From positions 904,501 through 968,500 of the forward strand of contig JAJHTX010000007.1 of the NCBI GenBank assembly GCA_032164295.1: 64,000 nucleotides of DNA, in the 5' to 3' direction. This document shows, one piece after another, positions 46,869 through 47,978 of the stretch (positions are counted from its first letter, which is position 1; every line of letters starts with the position of its first letter). A program made the position numbers and the translations under genes. This DNA is from Inonotus obliquus (taxonomy: Eukaryota > Basidiomycota > Agaricomycetes > Hymenochaetales > Hymenochaetaceae). Below the pieces are notes generated by a model, which had not been told where the DNA came from, did not search any database, and saw only the letters and a program-made list of their open reading frames with translations.

Positions 46869-47978
46869 CTAATTCTTCGTCTCTTCATTCAGCAATGTTG
46901 GGAGACCAGCCAGTTTCATCTTGACGCTAACTTCGAAGAGGTAATCCAAGCACTGTAGAGCAGTATTCCATGCAAGCATGTCAATATGAAAAGGATCTTG
47001 GCGTACCTCCGTCTGCGTCTTTGCCTTTTGCCAATCAAGACCTGTGATACAATCAGCTCATTTCCTTTGATCGTTTATTTCACACATACCCCATACATAG
47101 ATACCATGTCGCCTTACTAGTACTGCAGCAGCGTCAGGATACTCCTTCATAGCCTGCAACCAATGTAAGCACCATCCAAAAATGCCAATGACATGTGCTT
47201 CATCCAACCTCAGCCATACCGTCTTTCAGATCCTCTTCATTGGGTGTATTCTCGATAATTGGGACGACGAGTGTGTCTAGATAAGATAAAGCGGCTCCCG
47301 TTCCCGCAATGCGAACACCCTTGATCATCTAATAGGAAACAAGGATTCCAGTCAAATCGACCGCGTCAATTGTGCATGACTTACTTCCTGAGAGTATGAA
47401 CTTAGCTATCATCGTACGATCACACTAAATACAGCGTACCTGATGAGATATTCGAAACTCCTTCCCCGGCCAAAGTAACGTCGCCATAACCGCGTGTTGT
47501 GAATGAGTATGTATGCACGAACCAGCATCTCGTAGTTCAAATGCGTTCCAGAACAATGGTGTACACGCTGATTCTTTCAGACCTACATGAGGACGTCGAA
47601 GAAAGATACGATCTGTATGTGGAGAGGGCTGTGGGTAAGGGAGGACGAATATATGTGTTGGTTCAATGCGCTCCTTTTGAACACCGGAGGGCGCTATGTA
47701 CACAATATCGCTAAAGTAGCAGAAAACACGCGTTAGATCAAAGTGAAATTTGTAGTAACGCAACTTCTTACCCTTGACGAATGGTAATTCCTCCTCCAGT
47801 ACCGGTGACCCACCCGAGATGATAGAACTGTCTGCAAAGCTCTGGGATTAAGTTCGCGGGCTATCGACAAACGATGGATCAGACAGCTATAGGATGCTTA
47901 TCCCCAAGGGCGCTTGCATACATGGCTAGGATCTGACGAGGTGACGAGAGCATCTGGATTGCCGTTGATGTTTGCCAT
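46869..47978 (-). CDS. MDE1: Methylthioribulose-1-phosphate dehydratase (MtnB/APIP/Mde1), with a 3-nt microexon
   Basis: A methionine-salvage enzyme: dehydrates 5-methylthioribulose-1-phosphate; zinc-dependent class II aldolase fold. Exons 47978-47922, 47860-47772, 47710-47440, 47387-47385, 47328-47209, 47153-47090, 47041-47007 and 46952-46869 total 723 nt (240 aa, the usual family length). Motifs in order: [45 protein letters not shown], the zinc ligands in [69 protein letters not shown] with the third zinc His, and [13 protein letters not shown]. The catalytic Glu (residue 140) is encoded only by the 3-nt exon GAA, between introns of 52 and 56 nt. Skipping it would keep the frame and delete the residue. 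Intron 5 has an unusual GTTGGA donor. It is divergent from DHR1. Confidence 0.95.

Follow-up and report, generated by a model that had tools for sequence, protein, structure and literature searches.

A probable three-nucleotide exon for the HQEMIKG glutamate of methylthioribulose-1-phosphate dehydratase (MtnB) in Inonotus obliquus

The methylthioribulose-1-phosphate dehydratase (MtnB/APIP) gene of Inonotus obliquus very probably contains a genuine internal exon of three nucleotides. This is the GAA at 47387-47385 on the minus strand, which would be part of the normal mRNA and would encode the glutamate of the motif HQEMIKG; its inclusion is probably constitutive, and the arrangement is probably common to many Agaricomycetes. 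Coordinates are those of the window, meaning the whole 64,000-nt stretch of DNA that was analysed. How the gene is spliced in I. obliquus, that the exon is included constitutively, in which order the introns are removed and that a protein lacking the codon would be inactive are what we infer from the gene structure and from comparative evidence consisting of predicted proteins.

Gene model and product

The minus strand from 48800 to 46500 was read and the gene reassembled exon after exon. It occupies 47978-46869 (minus strand), with the following features.

47922..47978, minus strand: exon 1, 57 nt, with the start ATG
47772..47860, minus strand: exon 2, 89 nt
47440..47710, minus strand: exon 3, 271 nt, with IHTHS (probable zinc-site histidines) and the C-terminal end ...ISHQ
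47388..47439, minus strand: intron 3, 52 nt, GTACGC...CTCTCAG, branch-like GCTAAG
47385..47387, minus strand: exon 4, the candidate microexon GAA, 3 nt, Glu of HQEMIKG
47329..47384, minus strand: intron 4, 56 nt, GTAAGT...CCTATTAG, branch-like TTGAC
47209..47328, minus strand: exon 5, 120 nt, N-terminal end MIKGVR
47090..47153, minus strand: exon 6, 64 nt, with VRRHG (probable third zinc-site histidine)
47007..47041, minus strand: exon 7, 35 nt
46869..46952, minus strand: exon 8, 84 nt, with the stop TAG

All seven introns are GT-AG, and the joined exons (57+89+271+3+120+64+35+84 = 723 nt) give 240 amino acids and a stop in a clean frame, in agreement with the original prediction of phase-consistent exons. 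The last bases of exon 3, CATCAG, run to 47440, and the donor after them is GTACGC, a hexamer that recurs as the donor of intron 7. GAA is preceded by CTCTCAG and followed by GTAAGT, the consensus donor; after TATTAG, exon 5 opens at 47328 with ATGATCAAG. If a microexon is an internal exon of at most 15 nt with its own flanking introns, GAA would qualify, with 3 nt between two GT-AG introns. The lengths of 52 and 56 nt had been called typical, and they are ordinary for this gene, whose remaining introns measure 61, 61, 55, 48 and 54 nt; a single intron of 111 nt is about twice the usual length there. A match to the branch consensus YTRAY was found neither in intron 3, which has GCTAAG only, nor in intron 5. 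As a separate matter, intron 7 (46953-47006, minus strand, 54 nt) has a length divisible by three and no stop in frame; its retention would silently add 18 residues, and annotation programs could easily take it as coding.

Alternative splice solutions were enumerated from every GT/GC...AG pair between about 47480 and 47290 with introns of at least 30 nt, yielding 92 one-intron and 770 two-intron combinations. The frame is open to the normal stop in 117 of the 862, and HQEMIKG is restored by a single one, the combination of 52- and 56-nt introns around GAA at 47387-47385; the predicted position and bases of the exon, and the predicted lengths, were right. Retention of intron 3 or intron 4 leads to a premature stop. 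Skipping of the microexon, in which exon 3 is joined to exon 5 and 111 nt are removed, stays in frame, as had been claimed; other in-frame mis-splices are also among the 117 open products and involve unlikely site choices.

From its matches, the product of 47978-46869 (minus strand) is identified as a predicted methylthioribulose-1-phosphate dehydratase. The protein scores 129.3 bits with Pfam PF00596 and 296.9 bits with human APIP (4m6r); with TIGR03328, whose equivalog cut-off is 137.05, it scores 198.7 bits with the glutamate and 188.0 without, above the cut-off in both forms. The HQEMIKG glutamate is present in the predicted protein only when the 3-nt exon is included. In the 4m6r alignment it corresponds to chain position 121, which we take to be Glu139 of human APIP by an offset of 18 residues, and for which Kang et al. 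in 2014 reportedly described a catalytic (acid/base) role. The original prediction had made the same equation and regarded the role as established; the equation follows from the alignment together with this offset, while the role enters here as background. HTH and RRHG are presumably the positions of the zinc-site histidines in MtnB, and by alignment these three predicted residues match those of human 4m6r. The MtnB family needs three conserved zinc-binding histidines, according to the part of the source covered (PMC3532061).

A genome search gave one clear MtnB locus together with matches to other methionine-salvage genes, MtnA-like and ARD, so that a working MtnB enzyme is expected. MtnC (enolase-phosphatase) was not found in the genome with TIGR01691, a model that exceeded its cut-off in only one of 14 control genomes. 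Two more loci with class II aldolase domains are present, L001 and L002 (C9:46869-47258, minus strand; C1:2752693-2753253, plus strand); the one on C9 has a weak TIGR03328 match (25.5 bits).

Annotations of relatives

Three protein searches were made, and the best 120 of 3870, 4117 and 476 matches were taken, together 176 distinct proteins. An intact motif was defined as [HR][QLM]EMIKG. Taxon groups were assigned from the listed names and general systematics, with six names checked; one protein with the glutamate (P0166) was left unclassified and kept outside the groups.

The closest relative among the matches listed is Sanghuangporus weigelae (92%), which by itself would probably place the window in Hymenochaetaceae; its annotation reads HQMIKG, without the glutamate. 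Among the matches listed, the intact motif is absent from 49 of 86 genome-annotated proteins of Agaricomycetes outside Cantharellales, and from 0/13 in Cantharellales, 0/12 in Tremellomycetes and 1/16 in Pucciniomycotina. These counts fit the expectation that automatic annotation would miss the exon, and the faults are of the kind that a Glu codon on a separate 3-nt exon would produce. The 49 faulty annotations in these matches comprise 32 with HQ-M, one with RQ-M, two with HL-M, four with HQQM, one with HLQM and nine otherwise garbled. The motif is intact in the other 37 of the 86 listed, from which presence or absence of the microexon is therefore not readable. In this group of matches, over half of the annotations lack an intact active-site motif, a fault that would mislead gene cloning, models of metabolism and surveys of active sites; the same error pattern offers a cheap search route to more 3-nt exons.

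A further 48 proteins among the matches listed come from jgi, lgn and ena contigs that carry no annotation, and the motif is missing from none of them. A motif test for full length on contigs of at most 5 kb was passed by 28 of the 48 (22 Agaricomycete-like, five Pucciniomycotina-like and one Tremellomycete-like); the 20 outside this strict count include some that look complete but did not pass the motif test (such as P0098 and P0104), partial ones and apparent genomic read-through. The glutamate is present in all 22 full-length Agaricomycete-like proteins among these matches, on contigs of 924-4,348 bases. The short contigs are most simply transcripts, since they carry an unbroken full-length frame in about 1-4 kb and the gene has seven introns here. 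The difference between 49/86 and 0/22 has a Fisher p of 2e-7, a value that ignores kinship of the sequences and applies to the matches listed. By the proxy of predicted proteins, the microexon appears conserved and yet misannotated, with five frames seemingly without the introns.

Even annotations that share a genus or a species name can differ in the presence of the glutamate; Favolaschia claudopus has models both with it (P0045, P0046, P0065) and without it (P0114). The strongest single case for a separate Glu exon, as read from predicted proteins, is Pisolithus microcarpus. Its annotations P0087 (HQ-M) and P0073 (HQQM, strain 441) and the short-contig sequence P0066 (HQEM, 927-base contig) differ only at the Glu residue over 235 positions. 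If ordinary splice sites lie between whole codons, then with a Gln codon before Met in the P. microcarpus genome the Glu codon would adjoin neither neighbouring exon and would form an exon of its own. A tandem NAG-GAG acceptor on one intron was considered and is disfavoured for P. microcarpus, since P0073 has Gln before Met and P0066 has Glu; it may apply in some other species. A pattern of the exon-intron architecture, run against a collection of viral contigs in search of relatives' genomic DNA, had 0 matches, as is to be expected of such a collection.

Some of the faulty annotations look instead like intron read-through. Translation after HQ begins Val-Arg or Val-Lys in P0067, P0105, P0080 and P0100, and after HQE it begins VN or VC in P0024 and P0072; valine after Gln as well as after Glu is consistent with GT donors in both places. 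The microexon model explains the garbled annotations P0020, P0077, P0105 and P0107 incompletely. P0020 (HQADNAPGLFLQEMIKG) was dropped as proof of an extended microexon, because one intron followed by an exon that carries the Glu explains it just as well.

Alternative readings and mechanism

The original prediction proposed that the microexon acts as an on/off splice switch, and this part found no support. A real but regulated exon would be skipped conditionally, for example in methionine-replete growth, to give a Glu-less off state or a poisoned oligomer subunit; mushroom fungi would then tune methionine salvage through splicing of one active-site residue, in an MtnB otherwise full-length. 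In its favour, skipping is in frame where intron retention brings a premature stop, so that a skipped mRNA might escape nonsense-mediated decay, and a regulated fungal microexon has precedent in the 20-nt exon of Trichoderma Xlr2, according to the part of that paper covered (PMC11121469). However, no Glu-less form is seen among the 48 unannotated-contig proteins listed, including 34 retrieved with a Glu-less bait, a weak test in that a minor isoform could go unseen in a database clustered at 90% identity. The intron used in skipping would be 111 nt long, against 48-61 nt for the introns of the gene, and the donor of intron 4 is the consensus. We consider regulation unlikely. The simplest reading is constitutive inclusion, in keeping with one clear MtnB locus, the other salvage genes and the uniform presence of the glutamate in the unannotated-contig proteins.

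It is highly improbable that the public Glu-less models are correct, with HQ joined directly to MIKG in a divergent or non-dehydratase MtnB. Their number, and the predominance of plain HQ-M among them, speaks for such models, but they conflict with one another inside genera and under a single species name, belong to an error class with apparent read-through, and are contradicted by the short-contig sequence matching P. microcarpus and by the 22 full-length Agaricomycete-like short-contig proteins listed, all of which carry the glutamate.

We give hardly any credence to a chance AG-GAA-GT, with the glutamate coming from a different splice pattern or from editing: AG-GAR-GT is indeed not very rare, but HQEMIKG is given by none of the remaining combinations of one or two introns that were enumerated, the pyrimidine-AG and GTAAGT context is rarely matched at random, and the relatives indicate the same site. 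The 111 nt that separate exon 3 from exon 5 contain AG-GAR-GT a single time. When the 99 nt enclosed by the outer hexamers of donor and acceptor were put through 20,000 dinucleotide shuffles, it appeared in 163, of which 34 left each intron 45 nt or longer, and YAG-GAR-GTAAGT appeared in one. Both strands of the window hold 32 AG-GAR-GT (0.028 per 111 nt) and two YAG-GAR-GTAAGT, a weaker yardstick than the shuffles.

For a genuine, constitutively included microexon, the following mechanism may be proposed. Each flanking intron appears complete, with donor, branch-like site and acceptor, and under intron definition could be recognised singly. Only 3 bases separate the intron 3 acceptor from the intron 4 donor; the two would not be occupied together, so removal is presumably sequential. 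Exon length would otherwise be no hindrance, because a short intron is probably recognised as a whole. The warning that so tiny an exon strains exon-definition models loses weight, as introns of about 50 nt are probably the recognised unit. The arrangement has probably been kept in many mushroom-type fungi because the glutamate is needed, and it would provide a natural test of how the spliceosome handles sites 3 bases apart by intron definition.

Known ultra-small exons and intron history

Ultra-small exons are already known; apparently unusual in MtnB is an exon that makes up a whole codon, encodes a proposed catalytic residue, seems common to many Agaricomycetes and is widely misannotated. 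No report of the MtnB microexon was found in the literature searched, a search with most subscription papers outside its scope. The comparisons below hold for the parts of the cited papers that were covered.

Fusarium CYP621A contains a 1-nt exon confirmed with SRA reads (PMC12940212). Like the MtnB exon it is fungal, ultra-small and flanked by introns, was revealed by a conserved motif that no other reading could put together, and escapes automatic annotation; an intron gap of about twice the usual length is the warning sign in both (PMC12940212). Unlike the MtnB exon, this ascomycete one is a single base of a glycine codon, and its omission breaks phase (PMC12940212), whereas the three MtnB bases form a whole codon that can be skipped in frame and that specifies the proposed catalytic residue. 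If confirmed by reads, the MtnB microexon would be among the smallest fungal exons described in the literature covered, next to the published one of 1 nt (PMC12940212).

Plant APC11 and VPS55 have 1-nt exons (PMC4674806; PMC8831610), that of APC11 being described as constitutive; earlier records were 6 nt for the smallest constitutive exon and 3 nt for the smallest alternative one (PMC4674806). These plant exons resemble that of MtnB in being conserved across species, missing from reference annotations and, in some lineages, absorbed by a longer exon once an intron was lost; they differ in being 1 nt long and less than a whole codon. Animal microexons of 3 nt are found in mouse Ncam and Drosophila troponin T (PMC8042270) and in Drosophila homothorax (PMC7392893), and like the MtnB exon they are one codon that can be skipped in frame. 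Unlike the probably constitutive MtnB exon, those of troponin T (PMC8042270) and homothorax (PMC7392893) are alternatively spliced, and in homothorax the 3 bp are the start of an exon that extends further (PMC7392893). None of these animal microexons is described as catalytic in the text covered (PMC8042270, PMC7392893), in contrast to the role proposed in MtnB.

P450 genes of the basidiomycete Phanerochaete chrysosporium are similar in having tiny exons and many introns of 45-55 bp, although no exon shorter than 6 bp, or two amino acids, is reported for them (PMC1184071). The Trichoderma Xlr2 microexon is likewise fungal and missing from the consensus gene model, but it is 20 nt long, regulated by glucose and part of an ascomycete transcription factor gene (PMC11121469).

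The microexon arrangement is not universal, as five apparent read-through frames carry HQEMIKG uninterrupted, with affinities to Coprinellus (P0144, P0162), Ramaria (P0151, P0158) and Clathrus (P0153). The contigs of P0144 and P0158 (17.9 and 52.6 kb) are surely genomic; those of P0151, P0153 and P0162 (1.1-2.2 kb) could be partly spliced RNA. To judge from these frames, the Coprinellus-, Ramaria- and Clathrus-like lineages probably lost or never had both introns around the Glu codon.

An Exidia (Auriculariales) annotation lacks the glutamate, and its closest Glu-bearing match in the first two lists, the short-contig P0109, reads RQEM; this one pair, at 84% identity, would put the microexon early in Agaricomycetes. 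In P0165 (Microbotryum silenes-dioicae), 54 residues of apparent retained intron separate HQ from EMIKG, which suggests an intron at HQ|E outside Agaricomycotina, one that may predate the microexon. The Pucciniomycotina-like frames P0136 and P0148, however, are uninterrupted, without the HQ|E intron. The two introns flanking the Glu codon seem to be jointly missing from the Coprinellus-, Ramaria- and Clathrus-like frames, a pattern that resembles joint intron loss.
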